The notes beneath the pieces are model-generated. The model worked only from the letters and a program-made list of their open reading frames with translations, was not told the origin of the DNA and made no database searches. A DNA stretch of 64,000 nucleotides. Origin: Spirochaetae bacterium HGW-Spirochaetae-1 (GTDB taxonomy: Bacteria > Spirochaetota > UBA4802 > UBA5550). The stretch lies in NCBI GenBank assembly GCA_002839375.1, contig PGXY01000010.1, positions 1 through 64,000 of the forward strand. The letters run 5' to 3'. Below, piece after piece: positions 50,419 to 60,361 of the stretch. How positions within the stretch are numbered: the first letter of the stretch is position 1; each line of letters starts with the position of its first letter. The position numbers were made by a program, and so were the translations under genes.

Positions 50419-52428
50419 TTATAAATCTTTTAGTAGCTTACGAATTTCTTCAGCCTTTGTAGATTTTATTTCAAGGAAAAGATTTAACGATTTCGTGTAC
50501 ATCTCTTTAGCATGGTTAAGATCACCTGCCATCGCATATATAATACCAAGATTACCATATTGATTGCCGATTCCCTCTTTGTTATCAACTATCTTAAAAA
50601 GAGATAATGACTTTTGAAAAAATTCTTCTGCACGTTTTAATTCACCTTGATTCATATATAAAAGTCCAAAATCATTGAATAGATCTGCAATATAAGTTTT
50701 GCGACCAATTGTTTCTTCAATAGCCAATGATTTTTCAAACATCTCTTCAGCACATTTATAGTTCTCCTGAATAAAATACAAATGACCGATATTCCTATAA
50801 TCTTTTGTTATGCTATATTTTCTACCAAGGGCATCGTTAATAGCCAAAGATTTTTTGTACATCTTTTCGGCATTCACAAGATCACCGTGCGTTGTATATA
50901 GGATTCCTAGATTACCATATTCGTTAGCCATACCATCCATACTACCAAGAGTCTCATATAGGGATAATGACTCTTTATGCATTAGTTCAGCTTGTTTAAA
51001 ATCTTCTTGTAACTGAAACAGAACACCGAGATTGGCATACTGGTTTGCAATACCTTTCTTGCGTTCAAGTTTTTTATTGATTGTTAATGACTTTTTGTAC
51101 ATTTTTTTAGCACTTTCAATATCTCCTCTCGTTTTATATAAAAGTCCCATGTTACCATATTGATCGGCCATGCCTTCTTTGTTGCCAAGTTCTTTAAAAA
51201 TAGATAAAGATTTGTTATGCATTTTTTCAGCAAGATCATTATCATCTTGCATAAAATATAAGTTTCCTAAATTACCACAAATATCTGCTATGCCTATTCT
51301 ACTGCCACGTTCTTCATTAATGATTAACGATTTTTTAAACGCTTCTTCAGCACGCTCTAACTCACCTTGCTCCTGATAAAGGACTCCGAGATTGCAGTAT
51401 ATTCCTGCTATTTCGTCTTTACGGCCAAGCTCCTCATTTATGGCTAATGACTTTTGGTACATTTTTTCAGCTTTTTTAATATAACCTTGTGCTAAATAAA
51501 GATTTCCGAGGTTGCCATATGCATTTGCCGCTTCAGGAAAATTTGTTTCAGAATTACTAATAAATAGCCATTTTTTTAAAGACTCTAACGCAGAAGTCAA
51601 ATCACCAGTACGGAAAAAAAATTCATAACCAAGAGCTAAAATTCTTACATCAGTTGTTTCTGTTATTAGTTCTGCAAATTTTTGTCGAGCATATTCGATT
51701 TTCCCATCTTTAGATAATTCTGCCGCATCTTTTGCAATTTGAAATTGCATAATTTCTAATTTCAGGCGTGCTTTCTCTGCATCGTCATGAGCCTGTGCAG
51801 CTTCAAAAGCCTTTTTTTCTGCTAAGGCTTTTGCCTTATTCACCTCTTCAAGTACTCCTGATGGTAGAACGACAATGTCTCTTTGTTGATTAGTTTTAGG
51901 AAGTTCTCCTTTCACATAAGCTCTAAGGTGATGATCAATTTCTGCTACAAAACTTTCTTCATTTTCAAAATAATGATATAAGACTAAGTGTGTATCTTCT
52001 AATTGCTTTCTAAAATTTATTACTTTTTGTAATTGATAACCTGGATCAGCTTCAGATGCAGCATCAACTCTTTTAAAAAAGACAAATATCTCAGGAGTTC
52101 TTTCGTTTTTCCATCTTTCTAAAGCTCTGTAAAACTCTTCTTCTGTGTATGATGTGTATGGTGATGCGTCGGGTGCATCTTGGCCCCATCTTCTATACAT
52201 CACTAAAATAAAAACGTCACATTTATCAATTTTTTCATTGATCACACCTTGATTACGCCGACCTGTTGAAGCAAGAGTATCTTCCCAACATAAAGGCACA
52301 AATTCAACATTTGCTCCATCGCCAAAGCCTACATTTAGTTGCTTAATTACATCCTTAAAACAATGACGTTCGTCAGCAAGATCATTTGGAGAGGCTATAA
52401 ATACGGAGATTATCCTTTTCATATTCAT
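50419..52428 (-). CDS. DUF4062-TPR protein
   Basis: 669 residues. The N-terminal 180 (KRIISVFIASPNDLADERHC, VFILVMYRRWG, YTSYTEEEFYRAL) match DUF4062, a flavodoxin/TIR-like fold often fused to NACHT, NB-ARC or TPR modules in defence-type proteins. A charged helix (190-260) is followed by nine tetratricopeptide repeats of exactly 40 residues (about 298-657) in kinesin-light-chain style, each opening like YGNLGNLY and ending in KSLAI. Strict 120-base periodicity implies recent internal duplication or strong selection. No catalytic domain beyond DUF4062 is seen. Confidence 0.78.
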   Translation of the reverse strand: MNMKRIISVFIASPNDLADERHCFKDVIKQLNVGFGDGANVEFVPLCWEDTLASTGRRNQGVINEKIDKCDVFILVMYRRWGQDAPDASPYTSYTEEEFYRALERWKNERTPEIFVFFKRVDAASEADPGYQLQKVINFRKQLEDTHLVLYHYFENEESFVAEIDHHLRAYVKGELPKTNQQRDIVVLPSGVLEEVNKAKALAEKKAFEAAQAHDDAEKARLKLEIMQFQIAKDAAELSKDGKIEYARQKFAELITETTDVRILALGYEFFFRTGDLTSALESLKKWLFISNSETNFPEAANAYGNLGNLYLAQGYIKKAEKMYQKSLAINEELGRKDEIAGIYCNLGVLYQEQGELERAEEAFKKSLIINEERGSRIGIADICGNLGNLYFMQDDNDLAEKMHNKSLSIFKELGNKEGMADQYGNMGLLYKTRGDIESAKKMYKKSLTINKKLERKKGIANQYANLGVLFQLQEDFKQAELMHKESLSLYETLGSMDGMANEYGNLGILYTTHGDLVNAEKMYKKSLAINDALGRKYSITKDYRNIGHLYFIQENYKCAEEMFEKSLAIEETIGRKTYIADLFNDFGLLYMNQGELKRAEEFFQKSLSLFKIVDNKEGIGNQYGNLGIIYAMAGDLNHAKEMYTKSLNLFLEIKSTKAEEIRKLLKDL

Positions 52429-53298: not shown

Positions 53299-53378
53299 AC
53301 CGGGACGCTCCCGATATTTTCGGAAAACCCTACATGATTTTTACGGGTATTTTTTTATGACAAAATATAAACACAAGA

Positions 53379-53625
53379 CAGCGAAGGCATGGACGCCTTC
53401 GCTGCTGAGCTGCGGCCGAGGATGGGGCAGGATGTCCCTCCGCAGGCCGCACAGGGCAGGTTAGCTGACACGGAGAGTCTTAAGCCCCTCGCGGCGTTTG
53501 AGCGAGCGCCCTTTTTTCGCCTCTTTTTTGTGGCGTGACAAAAAAGGGGCAAAGGTGCCAGGAACCGTCCGCCGGACACCCCGGCCTCCCTACACGGCAG
53601 AGTGCCCCCTGCCGCAATCCCCGTT
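53379..53625. repeat. GC-rich structured repeat, copy 1 (divergent)
   Basis: Starts with hairpin CAGCGAAGGC, loop ATGGAC, GCCTTCGCTG (53379-53404), then TGCGGCC...GGCCGCA (53411-53417 / 53445-53451) enclosing a smaller hairpin. Shares about 90 bases with copies 2 and 3, then has its own middle containing CCCTTTTTT / AAAAAAGGG (53509-53517 / 53540-53548), and rejoins near 53575 (GGACACCCCGGCCTCCC). Confidence 0.6.
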
Positions 53626-53693: not shown

Positions 53694-54020
53694 CAGAGAG
53701 TACAGGGATGTACTCTCTGCTGGGCTGCGGCCGAGGATGGGACACGATGTCCCTCCGCAGGCCGCACAGGGCGGGTTATCTGATATGGAAAGACTCTTAG
53801 CCCGTCGCGGCCAGCGACCGCCGGGGAGGTCGAGGAGGGGGCGGCGAGGCCCCTTCCTCGTGATTCAGTCCCGGGCAACCGGGACATAAAAATCCCCAGC
53901 CTTGATAAAGGCTAAAAACCTCCCGGGAAGGGCAGCCCGGACACCCCGGCCTCCCCACCCGGCAGAGGGCCTCTGCCGCAAAGGTTCCTGTCCCGAACCC
54001 GCGGGACAACCCACCCCGGC
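53694..54020. repeat. GC-rich structured repeat, copy 2
   Basis: Starts with hairpin CAGAGAGTACA, loop GGGA, TGTACTCTCTG (53694-53719), then the TGCGGCC hairpin, then a series of perfect small hairpins including GTCCCGG/CCGGGAC, AGCCTT/AAGGCT and GGCAGAGG/CCTCTGCC. Aligns without gaps to copy 3 over about 285 bases at an offset of 2305. Confidence 0.7.
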
Positions 54021-54174: not shown

Positions 54175-55857
54175 GTGAATTACGAAATAATATCAGGCAT
54201 GATCTTCCAGCTGATCGGCGGGTTAGCCCTCTTTCTCATCGGCATGAACAACATGTCAAACGGCATGCAGGCCGTAGCGGGTGACGGCCTCAGGAAAATA
54301 ATCAGTACCGTCACCAATAACAGGTTTAGGGGACTGGCCGTGGGACTGATCGTAACGTCCATAATACAGTCCAGTTCAATCACCACGGTTTTGGTTGTAG
54401 GATTTGTCAACGCCGGGGTCATGACCCTCACGCAGTCCATCGGCGTGATCCTCGGCGCCGATATAGGCACAACCATTACGGGATGGATACTTGTACTGGA
54501 CATCGGCAGATACGGACTGCCGCTTCTGGGTATCGCCGGCTTCTTCTACCTCTTTTCCTCAAAGGAAAAGGTGCGATACATAGCCCTCATGGTAATGGGG
54601 ATCGGCATGGTCTTTTTCGGCCTGGAGCTCATGAAAAACGGATTCAAGCCCCTCAGGGAAATTCCTGAGTTTCTCCGTCTCTTTACGCTCTTCTCTCCGG
54701 ATAATGGCGGGAGTCTGGTGCTCTGTGCCCTGGCCGGGGCCGTGGTCACCGCCATAATACAGTCATCGTCGGCATCCGTCGGTATTGCCATGGGCATGGC
54801 CGCGACAGGAGTGATCGATTTCCAGACATCGGTCGCACTCGTCCTGGGAATGAATATAGGTACGACAATCACGGCATTTCTCGCGTCACTGGGCGCGGGA
54901 GCGAACGCGAAGAGGGCGGCATATGCCCATATCCTGATAAAGGTAGTCGGGGTACTATGGGTACTGCCCCTGTTCAGCCTGTTCGTCAGACTGATCCCAT
55001 GGATAATAGGCGCGGACCCGAACACGATACTGGTGGAAAACGGCGTAACGACCTATCCTGTCGTGATAAAAGGAATCGCTACGGCGCATACCGTATTCAA
55101 TATTGCCAATGTAATCCTGTTTCTGCCTTTTACCCGGCTGTTGTCATCATCCCTGAAAAAAATCATATCAGACGATCCGTCGGCAACGGTCCACAGGCTG
55201 ACAAAACTCGACGTGAGGCTCCTTGACAGCCCCATGCTGGTAATCGAACAGTCGCGAAAGGAAATCCTCAACATGGGAGATAAGATCAGGACAATGTTTA
55301 CTGATCTCCGGGAGGTATACTCCCATCCCGAACCGGACCAGGAGATTGTAAAAAGAATATTCCAGATGGAAGATGAGCTGGATATAATGCAGAAAGAAAT
55401 CGCCACCTTCCTGGTGGATACCGTGTCCCGGGAGATTTCTCACCGGAACACCATAGAGGCCCAGGCGCATCTTCGAATCGCCGATGAATATGAATCGGTG
55501 AGCGATTATATCACCAATATCCTCAAGCTGCACCTCAAGCTCAGTGACGCCGGTATTAATTTGACGGAAACGAAAAGAATCGAGATCGGCAGGCTTCACG
55601 ATGATGTTGCTGCGTATTTTGAAACGATCAACACCTCCCTGTACAGAAGGCAGTCCGTTGATCTGCCGAAGGTATACAGCCAGGGCAGTGCCATAACCCA
55701 TCAGTTCAAGAAACTGAGAAACAACCATCTCCAGAGACTGTCGGAAAAGAAAATGGAACCTCTGCTCAGTGTCAGTTATATCAATATGCTCAATTCCTAC
55801 AGGACCATCAGGGAGTACATTCAAAACGTGGCCGAGGTAATGGCTGAAAAGAATTAA
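54175..55857 (+). CDS. Na/phosphate cotransporter family protein with PhoU-like domain
   Basis: 560 residues from GTG 54175, with GGGGAG nine bases before it. Two inverted membrane repeats carry the QSSSITTVLVVGFVNAG and QSSSASVGIAMGMA motifs typical of NptA/PNaS transporters (GADIGTT and GMNIGTT turns). The C-terminal 200 residues (about 345-555) form a PhoU-like helical domain with EIATFLVDTVSREI. Imports phosphate with sodium. The gene stands between two near-identical direct repeats. Confidence 0.93.
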   Translation: MNYEIISGMIFQLIGGLALFLIGMNNMSNGMQAVAGDGLRKIISTVTNNRFRGLAVGLIVTSIIQSSSITTVLVVGFVNAGVMTLTQSIGVILGADIGTTITGWILVLDIGRYGLPLLGIAGFFYLFSSKEKVRYIALMVMGIGMVFFGLELMKNGFKPLREIPEFLRLFTLFSPDNGGSLVLCALAGAVVTAIIQSSSASVGIAMGMAATGVIDFQTSVALVLGMNIGTTITAFLASLGAGANAKRAAYAHILIKVVGVLWVLPLFSLFVRLIPWIIGADPNTILVENGVTTYPVVIKGIATAHTVFNIANVILFLPFTRLLSSSLKKIISDDPSATVHRLTKLDVRLLDSPMLVIEQSRKEILNMGDKIRTMFTDLREVYSHPEPDQEIVKRIFQMEDELDIMQKEIATFLVDTVSREISHRNTIEAQAHLRIADEYESVSDYITNILKLHLKLSDAGINLTETKRIEIGRLHDDVAAYFETINTSLYRRQSVDLPKVYSQGSAITHQFKKLRNNHLQRLSEKKMEPLLSVSYINMLNSYRTIREYIQNVAEVMAEKN

Positions 55858-55998: not shown

Positions 55999-56340
55999 AA
56001 GCGAGGGCACGGATGCCCGAACGCCTGGGCTGCGGCCGAGGATGGAGCAGGACGCTCCTCCGCAGGCCGCACAAGGCGGGTTATCTGATACAGAAAGACT
56101 CTTAGCCCGTCGCGGCCAGCGACCGCCGGGGAGGTCGAGGAGGGGGCGGCGAGGCCCCTTCCTCGTGCTTCAGTCCCGGGCAACCGGGACATAAAAATCC
56201 CCAGCCTTGATAAAGGCTAAAAACCTCCCGGGAAGGGTAGCCCGGACGCCCCGGAATCCCTCCCCGGCAGAGGGCCTCTGCCGCAAAGGGTCCTGTCCCG
56301 GACCCACGGGACATCCCACCCGGCAGGGAACCCCTGCCAA
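55999..56340. repeat. GC-rich structured repeat, copy 3
   Basis: Starts with GGGCA, loop CGGA, TGCCC (56005-56018), then the TGCGGCC hairpin (56031 onward) and the same downstream hairpin series as copy 2. The 5' hairpin stem differs from copies 1 and 2 while the following 280 bases are nearly identical. Confidence 0.7.
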
Positions 56341-56360: not shown

Positions 56361-57707
56361 TTACCGCTTCACCATCTTCTGAGCCATGGCATTGACCGGG
56401 TCCCAGACCGGCGAGAAGGGCGGGGCGTAGCCCAGGTCAAGATACGCCAGCTGCTCTATAGTCATACCGGCCGTGATGGCCGTGGCGATGATATTGGTCC
56501 GCAGGGCCGCGCCGTCGGTGCCTATAACCTCACCGCCGATAACCTTCCGCGAGCCTTTATCGGCCGTGAGCGTGATGTATATTTTCTGTGCCCTGGGGCA
56601 GTACCCTGCGCGGGACTTCCACACCGTGGAATCCGAGACCGCCTCGATACCCTCGCGCGCCGCGTCGTCGGCGTTGAGGCCCGTTTTGCCCACCTCGAGA
56701 TCAAAGATCTTCACGAACTGCGAGCCCACGATGCCGGGGAATATTTCCGCCGAAACCCCGGCGGCCTGGAGGCCTGCCACGCGTCCCTGCTTGTTGGCCG
56801 TGGAGCCCAGGGGCATGTAGACGTCCTTTCCCGTGACCAGGTGTTTCACCGTGGCGCAGTCGCCGGCGGCGTACACGCCGGGAATCCCGGTTTCGGACTT
56901 CTCGTTAATGATTATGGCACCGCGCTCCGTCATGGCCAGGGGCGATCCTTTGAGGAATTCCGTGTTGGGAAGAACTCCCGTGGAAATGATGATAAAGTCC
57001 GCGTCAAAGGCGCCGTTGTCGGTCCGCACAGAAAGTCCCGTGCCCTTTTTATCGATACGCTCGATGGCCATACCCGTATGGACCGTGACGCCGTTCTCCT
57101 TCAGCTTTTCCGCGATACGGCCCCGGACGTCGCTGGACATGCCCATGGCCACGGATTCCAGGCGCTCCAGGATGACCGTATCAATGCCCATGGACCTGAA
57201 GGCCTCGGCCATTTCCAGTCCTATGAAGCCGCCGCCGATAATGAGTCCCCGCGATGGTTTCTTCTTTTCGACGTATTCCCTGATGGCCATGCCCTGGGCC
57301 AGGTTGCGCAGGTAGAAGATAGTATCGGCATCTCCTCCCGGAATGGGCGGCCGGAAGGCCCGGGCGCCCGTGGCAATGACCAGTTTATCATAACCGTATT
57401 CGGTGTCGCCGTCAGGTGTCCGGATGGTGACGGTCTTCGCGGTAAAATCCGTTTTTACGGCCTCGGCGTCGTTGCGGATATCGATGTTCTTTTTTTCGAT
57501 AAATTCGTCCTTATCGATGGCAATAAGGCTCCGGTGGTCCGCTATCTGCCCGGAAATATAATAGGGCATGCCGCAGGCCGCGTAAGAAACATGCTTTCCC
57601 CTGTCGAAAACCCCGATGGTCATGGATTCATTGACGCGCCTGGCCTGGGAAGCGGCGCTCATGCCCGCGGCGTCGCCGCCGATGACGAGAAGATCGAAGT
57701 GTTTCAT
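56361..57707 (-). CDS. FAD/NAD-dependent disulfide reductase, CoA-disulfide-reductase-like
   Basis: 448 residues. FAD motif GGDAAGMSAA (10-19); single active-site Cys 45 in YAACGMPYY, the pattern of CoA-disulfide reductase and NADH oxidase rather than two-cysteine thioredoxin reductase; NAD-binding GGGFIGLEMA; FAD motif II VYAAGDCATV. It reduces CoA disulfide, persulfide or polysulfide with NAD(P)H. It is divergent from the selenoprotein gene 180 bases away. Confidence 0.9.
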   Translation of the reverse strand: MKHFDLLVIGGDAAGMSAASQARRVNESMTIGVFDRGKHVSYAACGMPYYISGQIADHRSLIAIDKDEFIEKKNIDIRNDAEAVKTDFTAKTVTIRTPDGDTEYGYDKLVIATGARAFRPPIPGGDADTIFYLRNLAQGMAIREYVEKKKPSRGLIIGGGFIGLEMAEAFRSMGIDTVILERLESVAMGMSSDVRGRIAEKLKENGVTVHTGMAIERIDKKGTGLSVRTDNGAFDADFIIISTGVLPNTEFLKGSPLAMTERGAIIINEKSETGIPGVYAAGDCATVKHLVTGKDVYMPLGSTANKQGRVAGLQAAGVSAEIFPGIVGSQFVKIFDLEVGKTGLNADDAAREGIEAVSDSTVWKSRAGYCPRAQKIYITLTADKGSRKVIGGEVIGTDGAALRTNIIATAITAGMTIEQLAYLDLGYAPPFSPVWDPVNAMAQKMVKR

Positions 57708-57819: not shown

Positions 57820-57848
57820 TTGACAAATATGCAGAATATAAGTATATT
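57820..57848 (+). promoter_or_regulatory. Sigma-70 promoter of the selenoprotein gene
   Basis: TTGACA (57820-57825), a 17-base spacer and TATATT (57843-57848), 40 bases before the start codon. A near-consensus promoter. Confidence 0.7.
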
Positions 57849-57887
57849 GTAAATAACTAAAATAATATATTTACTATGGAGTTATCA

Positions 57888-58190
57888 ATGTCGGTCACCA
57901 TTACTGATAAGGCAAAAGAAAATCTTAACCTGGTTATGAAGGATGCCGATCTCAAGAACCCGGCCCTGCGAATACTTTTCTCGGGCTTTGGTTGAGGCGG
58001 ACCCCGACTGGGGCTGGCTCTGGATGAGCTGGAAGACTCAAAAGATCACAGTTTTACAACGAATGATATCACCGTCGTTCTCGATGACAAGATAAAGAAT
58101 TTTGTCGAGACCGGATCGGGCATAATCGTGGATTATCGCGAGACCCCCTACGGCAAGGGTTTTATTGTCGAAGGCGGCAGCACCTGCTGA
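57888..58190 (+). CDS. HesB/IscA-like selenoprotein
   Basis: 100 codons plus stop TGA at 58188-58190, with an in-frame TGA at 57993-57995 (codon 36) read as selenocysteine. The flanking sequence SGFG-U-GGPRLGLALDEL aligns with the first conserved Cys site of A-type Fe-S carriers (SGC-type in IscA) and with known HesB-like selenoproteins. After it the frame stays open and protein-like (ITVVLDDKIKNFV, IIVDYRETPYG, VEGGSTC), ending in a single Cys at 100; the usual CGC near the end is reduced. GGAG precedes the ATG by seven bases. The function is probably sulfur or Fe-S/redox chemistry. Requires SelB and the selenocysteine tRNA encoded elsewhere. Confidence 0.88.
58014..58032 (+). ncRNA. Bacterial SECIS hairpin
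   Basis: CTGGCTC (58014-58020) pairs with GAGCTGG (58026-58032), a 7-bp stem with two G-U pairs; the loop is TGGAT with G at the second position. It begins 18 bases after the UGA, so the loop is 25 bases away, within the range known for bacterial SECIS elements. Confidence 0.7.
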
Positions 58191-58201
58191 TTGAATTTAC
58201 G

Positions 58202-58223
58202 GAGACGCGAACCCTCGCGTCTC
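58202..58223. terminator. Hairpin between convergent selenoprotein and sulfatase genes
   Basis: GAGACGCGA (58202-58210) pairs with TCGCGTCTC (58215-58223), loop ACCC, with a T-rich tail on the plus strand. Serves as a bidirectional terminator. Confidence 0.6.
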
Positions 58224-60361
58224 TATAATTCTTTCCTCTCCGCTGCTTTCCGGTTTTTATTCAATGCATTTTTAGCGGCGCTTCTCTTTTTCAGGGCGGG
58301 GGAGCTTTCCTTTTTGAGCATGATATTATAATATGCCAGTTTATGCTCACGGGCCTTCAGCACATGGGAACGATACGTACTGACAAGGTCCGCGTTGCCT
58401 GCGGCCAGGTTTATTTTCTCACCGGGATCCTTTTCAATATCATACAATTCCTCAAAGCCTTCCTTCATGCGCCGGATGTATTTCCATTTCCCGTCGCGAA
58501 TAGCCATGTAGTCGTCCTTCCAGTAGGTGTGCAGCAGGGCCATCTGCCCGCGGTGGGGGCCGAAGAAGGATATCCCCTCCTGTTCCGCCGGGCCCCGTAT
58601 GTCCAGGATGTCCAGTATTGAAGGCATGATATCGATATGCCGCGAAATGCCCCGGTACTGATGGGCCTTTTTAATGAGCTTCCGGTTGTACACCAGGAAG
58701 GGGACATGGACATTGTCTTCGTACAGGAAAAAGGGATGGTTGTAGTTCTTCGCGTGTTCATAAAAGGCCTCACCGTGGTCGGCGAAGAGAAAGAGGAGGG
58801 TGTTTTCCATGAGACCCTCCTTTTCGAGCCGGTCCACCAGGGCGCCCAGGGCAGCGTCGGCGTAGTGCAGTGAATTGACGTAATTGAGCCAGTTCTTCGT
58901 CTTGTAATCGGCGTTAACCGGTATATCTCCTGTTATATTGAATTCCTTTCCCGGAATAGCGTAGGGATGATGGGGATTCACGGGTATGTACACCATGAAG
59001 AAGGGCGCTTCTCTTTTTTCCTTCATGAACGCCACGGAGGGCTCGATCATGGAGCGTTCATCGAGGCCCCATCCCACCTTGTAGTTGTAGGGAGGAATGT
59101 CCTTCAGGTCATTGTAATCGATGATCCTGTCGAATTTGCGGTACTTCAGGAAGCGCTTCTGGCCGGCGTAGCGCAGGTCGCCGGGATGGATGACGCAGGT
59201 CCGGTACCCCCTGTCCTTCAGGACCTGGGAAAGGCTCGTGAGACCGATATTGGAATGCTTCTGTATGATGAGATCCTTTGAGGGATGGTCATAGGCCGAC
59301 GTCATGATGGAGAGCATGGCATTGGCCGACAGGGGGAAATTGGCGTAATGGTTTTTTGCCGACAGGCTGTTTTCCCGCAGCCTTCGCCACACGGGGGTCA
59401 CGGCCCTGCCGTTTATGTCCAGGTCGATATATCGCGCCGCAGTCGATTCAAAGAAAAAGAGTATGATATTGTACCGGCGCCCCCGGGGGATCAGGTCTAT
59501 TTCATCGTACCGGTCGCTGTTCTCAAGGGAATCGGTATTGAACCGGTAGGTGAATGGTCCTGTACTACCGGCGGTTTTATCCGCGGCAGGACCGGTCTCC
59601 GGGGCCTGTCTCTCCAGGGCGAGGTTATACAGAGGACTCATGGCGAATTCGCGCAGGGCCACGGTGCTTTTTTTTGCGTCCATGCCGGGAAAACGGTCCG
59701 CCATGCTTTTCAGGCCCTTGTCGCCGCCGGTAAAAAGGGCCAGGGCCGCGAGGACAAGGGCTGCGGCTCCGGGGAACATCATTGCGGTCCGGGCAGGAAC
59801 CGTTGACGGCGTTGTATTCATGATATGGGCCATGCCCCGTTCATCATAGGTGCGGACAAAGAGGCGGTAGAACATGATGAGAAGGACCGTGAGGATAAAG
59901 AGGAAAACCCAGAAACGCAGGGACGTTTCGGAAAGGATAGAAATGAACATCTCGCCCAGGGCCGAATTGTTCTCATCGGTCCAGAAGCTTTTCTGGTATG
60001 TTGTTTCATAGACCCGGAAAAAATCCATGCCCAGAACCAGCGCCACGCACTGGACCAGGGTAAAGGCCGAGGCAAGCACAAGTCCCGTTTTCCTGAAGGG
60101 ACCAGCAGCCATGAATATGAGCAGCAGTATGGCCAGGATGAGCAGCGTTGTCACGGCATCGGTGCGTCCGAAGAGAGACATATAGTCCATGAAACCCAGG
60201 GAACGGAAATCGGCATAGGATTCCCGTATCATGGTGAGGATACGGACGCGGTACAGGACCTGCATGATGATGGAAATGAGCAGGTACAGGGAAAGGGCCG
60301 GGGACCACTCACGGTAGCGCGAGGCCAGATACTCATAAATCGATAAAAATATTGTCTTCAT
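58223..60361 (-). CDS. LtaS/sulfatase-like membrane phosphoryl-transferase
   Basis: 712 residues. Five hydrophobic segments in residues 1-215, then a periplasmic sulfatase-fold domain: FFFESTAARYIDL with the metal-binding acid and Thr nucleophile site, later LFLFADHGE and HVPFLVYN. The membrane plus sulfatase order resembles lipoteichoic acid synthase and phosphoethanolamine/phosphoglycerol transferases, which transfer a head group onto lipids or glycans. A plain sulfatase is less likely because of the membrane domain and absence of a CxPxR motif. Confidence 0.85.
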   Translation of the reverse strand: MKTIFLSIYEYLASRYREWSPALSLYLLISIIMQVLYRVRILTMIRESYADFRSLGFMDYMSLFGRTDAVTTLLILAILLLIFMAAGPFRKTGLVLASAFTLVQCVALVLGMDFFRVYETTYQKSFWTDENNSALGEMFISILSETSLRFWVFLFILTVLLIMFYRLFVRTYDERGMAHIMNTTPSTVPARTAMMFPGAAALVLAALALFTGGDKGLKSMADRFPGMDAKKSTVALREFAMSPLYNLALERQAPETGPAADKTAGSTGPFTYRFNTDSLENSDRYDEIDLIPRGRRYNIILFFFESTAARYIDLDINGRAVTPVWRRLRENSLSAKNHYANFPLSANAMLSIMTSAYDHPSKDLIIQKHSNIGLTSLSQVLKDRGYRTCVIHPGDLRYAGQKRFLKYRKFDRIIDYNDLKDIPPYNYKVGWGLDERSMIEPSVAFMKEKREAPFFMVYIPVNPHHPYAIPGKEFNITGDIPVNADYKTKNWLNYVNSLHYADAALGALVDRLEKEGLMENTLLFLFADHGEAFYEHAKNYNHPFFLYEDNVHVPFLVYNRKLIKKAHQYRGISRHIDIMPSILDILDIRGPAEQEGISFFGPHRGQMALLHTYWKDDYMAIRDGKWKYIRRMKEGFEELYDIEKDPGEKINLAAGNADLVSTYRSHVLKAREHKLAYYNIMLKKESSPALKKRSAAKNALNKNRKAAERKEL

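Follow-up and report, generated by a model that had tools for sequence, protein, structure and literature searches.

We found that the window, by which we mean the whole 64,000-nt stretch of DNA analyzed from Spirochaetae bacterium HGW-Spirochaetae-1, almost certainly contains a gene for a genuine HesB-like selenoprotein, an assignment that, from sequence comparisons, concerns the identity and kind of the protein and not its function. The reading frame runs from an ATG at position 57888 through 100 codons, the last of which encodes Cys (C terminus GGSTC), to a TGA stop codon at positions 58188 to 58190, and the motif around the selenocysteine (Sec) is G-F-G-U-G-G-P. An earlier note on this DNA had described a HesB/IscA-like selenoprotein with a UGA at codon 36 that continues as a family-like sequence to a Cys-ending stop, and its coordinates proved correct. 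It had also stated that standard gene callers fail on this gene; indeed, the standard open reading frame (ORF) list contains no ORF of at least 60 amino acids in this frame at the site. Ordinary gene callers miss the gene because the Sec codon reads as a stop. From the recoding signal, the Sec machinery, the conservation, and the predicted fold, we infer that SelB and Sec-tRNA would recognize a hairpin just after codon 36 and insert selenocysteine, and that translation would then proceed to the stop at codon 101. The product would have an A-type HesB/IscA fold, with a single terminal Cys and with Sec at the site of the first cluster-binding residue.

The features of the locus are listed in Table 1. 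Given its sigma-70-like promoter and strong terminator, the selenoprotein gene resembles a one-gene unit.

Table 1. Features of the selenoprotein locus, in window coordinates
Feature	Position	Strand	Basis
HesB-like selenoprotein gene	57888..58190	+	Translation with TGA read as Sec; NF038090 and TIGR01911 matches; IscA fold
Sec codon (in-frame TGA, codon 36)	57993..57995	+	TGA here in 27 order relatives and the Zixibacteria MAG locus
SECIS hairpin, 7-bp stem, loop UGGAU	58014..58032	+	Covariation; frozen codons
Likely promoter, TTGACA-17-TATATT (11/12)	57820..57848	+	Consensus scan only; sigma-70-like
GGAG, ribosome-binding-like, 5′ of the ATG	57878..57881	+	Read from sequence
Intrinsic terminator, 10-bp stem	58201..58224	+	Scan and fold, z −6.9
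CoA-disulfide reductase family flavoprotein, divergent conserved neighbor	56361..57707	−	TIGR03385 E 1e−126, below equivalog cut-off

Elsewhere in the window, a GC-rich repeat of about 300 bp (53695-53994 and 56000-56299, also 53373-53480) flanks a gene at 54175-55857 whose product, judged by eye, is like a Na/phosphate cotransporter. Identity between the two copies is 91 to 94%. The repeat has 27 matches of differing length, spread across most of the genome's contigs, and has the appearance of a dispersed family of non-coding repeats. On the minus strand, positions 50419-52428 encode a 669-amino-acid protein with many TPR-like repeats, whose N-terminal part resembles DUF4062-type proteins by eye.

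The host genome, which spans 5.2 Mb in 14 contigs and is 96.5% complete, carries all four of the genes selA, selB, selC, and selD, for which the earlier note had recommended a search. The tRNA-Sec gene selC (anticodon UCA, 72.1 bits), selA (494.6 bits), selB (312.3 bits), and selD (366 bits) all score above their cut-offs, and selC, selA, and selB are contiguous on contig C1. The selD gene, which has one in-frame TGA within a GSGU motif, is itself a selenoprotein gene (locus L011 of the source genome G000, C1:297760-298683). An in-frame TGA would also be seen if the whole genome decoded TGA as tryptophan or some other standard amino acid, but nothing beyond the TGA itself speaks for such recoding. 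Against it, the reading frames of selA and selB have no internal TGA, the selenoprotein gene, like several of its relatives, terminates in TGA, and the codon in question aligns with a Cys and encodes Cys in a relative (G029) in which no SelB scored above the cut-off. We consider genome-wide recoding refuted by these comparative data and its probability negligible.

A search of 59 genomes, comprising the source genome and its relatives, recovered a homologue in 32, and the best match carries one TGA in 30 of these 32, including the source genome. Relatives were also checked for a Cys codon at the site with disrupted downstream frames, which the earlier note had named as refuting its reading: in all 27 relatives from the order that were read through by hand (38 to 57% identity), TGA is retained at the Sec codon and the downstream frame is intact. 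A search of genome contigs yielded a single match, a locus in a Zixibacteria MAG, which also has TGA at the Sec codon. The dN/dS ratio after the UGA is low in close pairs; synonymous sites are saturated in more distant ones, which are therefore uninformative. In G029, which has no SelA match, the homologue (L051) has TGT in place of TGA, its loop reads AUAGAU in place of CUGGAU, and its C terminus is altered. The Cys codon, the broken loop, and the altered C terminus are the expected outcome of a loss of Sec decoding, and L051 is an apparent case of Sec loss. Neither SelA nor a homologue was found in the genomes G021, G026, and G030 of family f3. Because three other genomes (G001, G004, and G028) have SelB and no homologue, the presence of SelB does not predict that of the gene.

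The earlier note had proposed a 7-bp SECIS-like stem with GG in the loop at the right distance from the UGA, and this element withstands comparison. Positions 58014 to 58020 pair with positions 58026 to 58032 (two of the pairs are G-U) around a loop at positions 58021 to 58025 that lies 25 nt after the TGA, and the hairpin alone has a folding energy of −8.2 kcal/mol. The hairpin satisfies all published constraints on bacterial SECIS elements, namely, a loop of 3 to 9 nt, an upper stem of 4 to 16 bp, a spacing of 16 to 37 nt, a G in the first two loop positions, and a minimum free energy (MFE) of at most −7.5 (PMC13188914). By itself, the 48-nt stretch exceeds its shuffles in stability only slightly (z −1.8), and a different pairing is preferred in its MFE structure. 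Since the lone fold is unremarkable, the case for the SECIS element is made by comparison, and the comparative data are decisive. Across 29 sequences (the window, the 27 order relatives, and the Zixibacteria MAG locus), 96.6% of stem cells are paired, and 9 cells are altered on both sides, for example, from C-G to U-A. The covariation score exceeds those of all 500 shuffles, although the shuffles give no strict probability because the sequences are related; versions of the stem slid along the alignment pair in at most 44% of cells. Codon choice in the SECIS region is also frozen (Ala GCT in 21/21, Leu CTG in 28/28, and Pro CCC in 28/28), whereas at other positions of the gene these residues are encoded by all or most of their codons (Fisher P from 1e−8 to 1e−13). 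No Rfam family matched in the 64,000-nt window.

An alternative hairpin, CCCC/GGGG at 58002-58013, shows no covariation, and its outer pair is broken in 16 of the 29 sequences; it is therefore not the supported element. The CCC/GGG stretch there, just 5′ of the SECIS stem, is nevertheless near-invariant at the Pro codon counted above and may reflect a further constraint acting on this part of the SECIS region.

The gene could be a truncated pseudogene in which the TGA is a nonsense mutation, as its absence from the standard ORF list would allow. This reading is contradicted by the TGA common to 27 relatives, by purifying selection after the TGA, by the covarying hairpin, and by the full Sec machinery of the genome. 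The comparative data refute it, and we regard it as extremely improbable.

The encoded protein belongs to a kind that is already known, the HesB-like selenoproteins (TIGR01911, HesB_rel_seleno; NF038090, IscA_HesB_Se). These have been catalogued since 2005-2006 (PMC1088965, PMC1794560) and are included, with their UxGP motif, in a 2026 review (PMC13188914); their hosts are mostly anaerobic (PMC1794560, PMC13188914), and their function is unclear (PMC11097638). The two models are the best-scoring families for the protein and likewise for its relatives, but the scores (NF038090, E 5e−16, 58.8 bits; TIGR01911, E 6e−13, 49.3 bits) fall under the curated cut-offs of 85 and 66.35, respectively, and no genome among 120 from the phylum reached the TIGR01911 cut-off. 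Judged by these scores, the protein represents a divergent branch of the HesB-like selenoproteins rather than a member as the curated models define one. It shares with them the HesB fold, a Sec residue in the position of the first conserved Cys, the UxGP motif (here UGGP), and a bacterial SECIS element, and differs in its scores and in a link, within its own family of genomes, to CoA-disulfide reductase and oxygen-defense genes. By description, it can also be likened to MMJJ_08070 of Methanococcus maripaludis, which mutagenesis and 75Se labeling in that species showed to be a HesB-like selenoprotein and whose function is unclear (PMC11097638), although the latter has an archaeal host and an archaeal SECIS system.

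The predicted structure (AlphaFold2, pLDDT 85) matches the solved IscA/SufA structures 1x0g, 1s98, and 2d2a (Foldseek, E from 2e−5 to 6e−4). As the earlier note had anticipated, Sec occupies the alignment column of the first conserved IscA-family Cys (the Cys of HI1723), and only one C-terminal Cys is left. The CxC pair of IscA is absent; a single C-terminal Cys is near-invariant in most of 27 sequences. The protein thus has the fold and the aligned first Cys position in common with the A-type Fe-S carriers IscA, SufA, and ErpA (TIGR00049, PF01521) and differs from them in having Sec for that Cys, in lacking the three cluster-ligand Cys residues that include the C-terminal CxC, and in scoring below the TIGR00049 and PF01521 cut-offs. 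It could still be an ordinary carrier in the role of IscA or ErpA, with Sec merely substituting for a cluster-ligand Cys. The fold is compatible with this role, and the protein may fill it because it is the only TIGR00049-like (HesB/IscA-family) protein found in the genome. The single C-terminal Cys in place of the CxC pair, the existence of order relatives without the selenoprotein, and the linkage to oxygen-defense genes in same-family relatives argue against it, and we view a carrier role as conceivable but somewhat improbable.

That linkage was seen in the gene neighborhoods. In the window, the CoA-disulfide reductase gene lies 180 bp from the selenoprotein gene, and relatives have the same divergent neighbor. 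About 4 kb of flanking sequence was read in nine relatives from the same family (G002, G003, G005, G006, G010, G014, G017, G018, and G019); the selenoprotein gene faces cydB-cydA, encoding cytochrome bd oxidase, in all nine, and the divergent CoA-disulfide reductase gene is upstream in six. Genes for superoxide reductase (SOR; 8/9), rubrerythrin (6/9), cysE (8/9), and cysK (4/9) are also near. With shorter flanks, parts of the same cydAB/oxygen-defense cluster are found in G012, G015, and G016, and no part of it was seen in G007 and G011. Elsewhere in the order, in families other than this one, the gene upstream of the selenoprotein gene is lon in 9 of 11 cases. The source genome has its rubrerythrin-SOR-cydBA genes on contig C2, away from the selenoprotein gene, and rubrerythrin, SOR, and cydAB are clustered in relatives that lack the gene or carry it elsewhere (L075, L078, L079, and L080). 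Because such clusters occur independently of the selenoprotein gene, the neighborhood is suggestive and not proof, and the gene may have landed beside a pre-existing oxygen-defense cluster. Its placement among oxygen-defense genes in related genomes is new and hints at function; we found no paper linking HesB, selenoprotein, and rubrerythrin.

On the basis of this neighborhood, we tentatively suggest that the protein serves in the oxygen-stress response, either through selenol redox chemistry or by protecting Fe-S clusters, and we favor this role over that of a plain Fe-S carrier, with neither reaching an even chance. The selenoprotein would work with the divergently encoded CoA-disulfide reductase. 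It is a more speculative and rather doubtful extension that the HesB-like selenoproteins of the order as a whole are a selenol component of oxygen defense coupled through this reductase to a thiol system that uses CoA and NAD(P)H, and not Fe-S carriers.

The gene adds an order-wide branch to a known, functionally unexplained selenoprotein family. Because the curated NCBI models score this branch below their cut-offs, annotation may truncate or overlook its members. The neighborhood in one family, with cytochrome bd oxidase, superoxide reductase, rubrerythrin, and CoA-disulfide reductase, provides a testable functional lead. If true, a role of the selenol in oxygen defense would be the first function for the HesB-like selenoprotein family.
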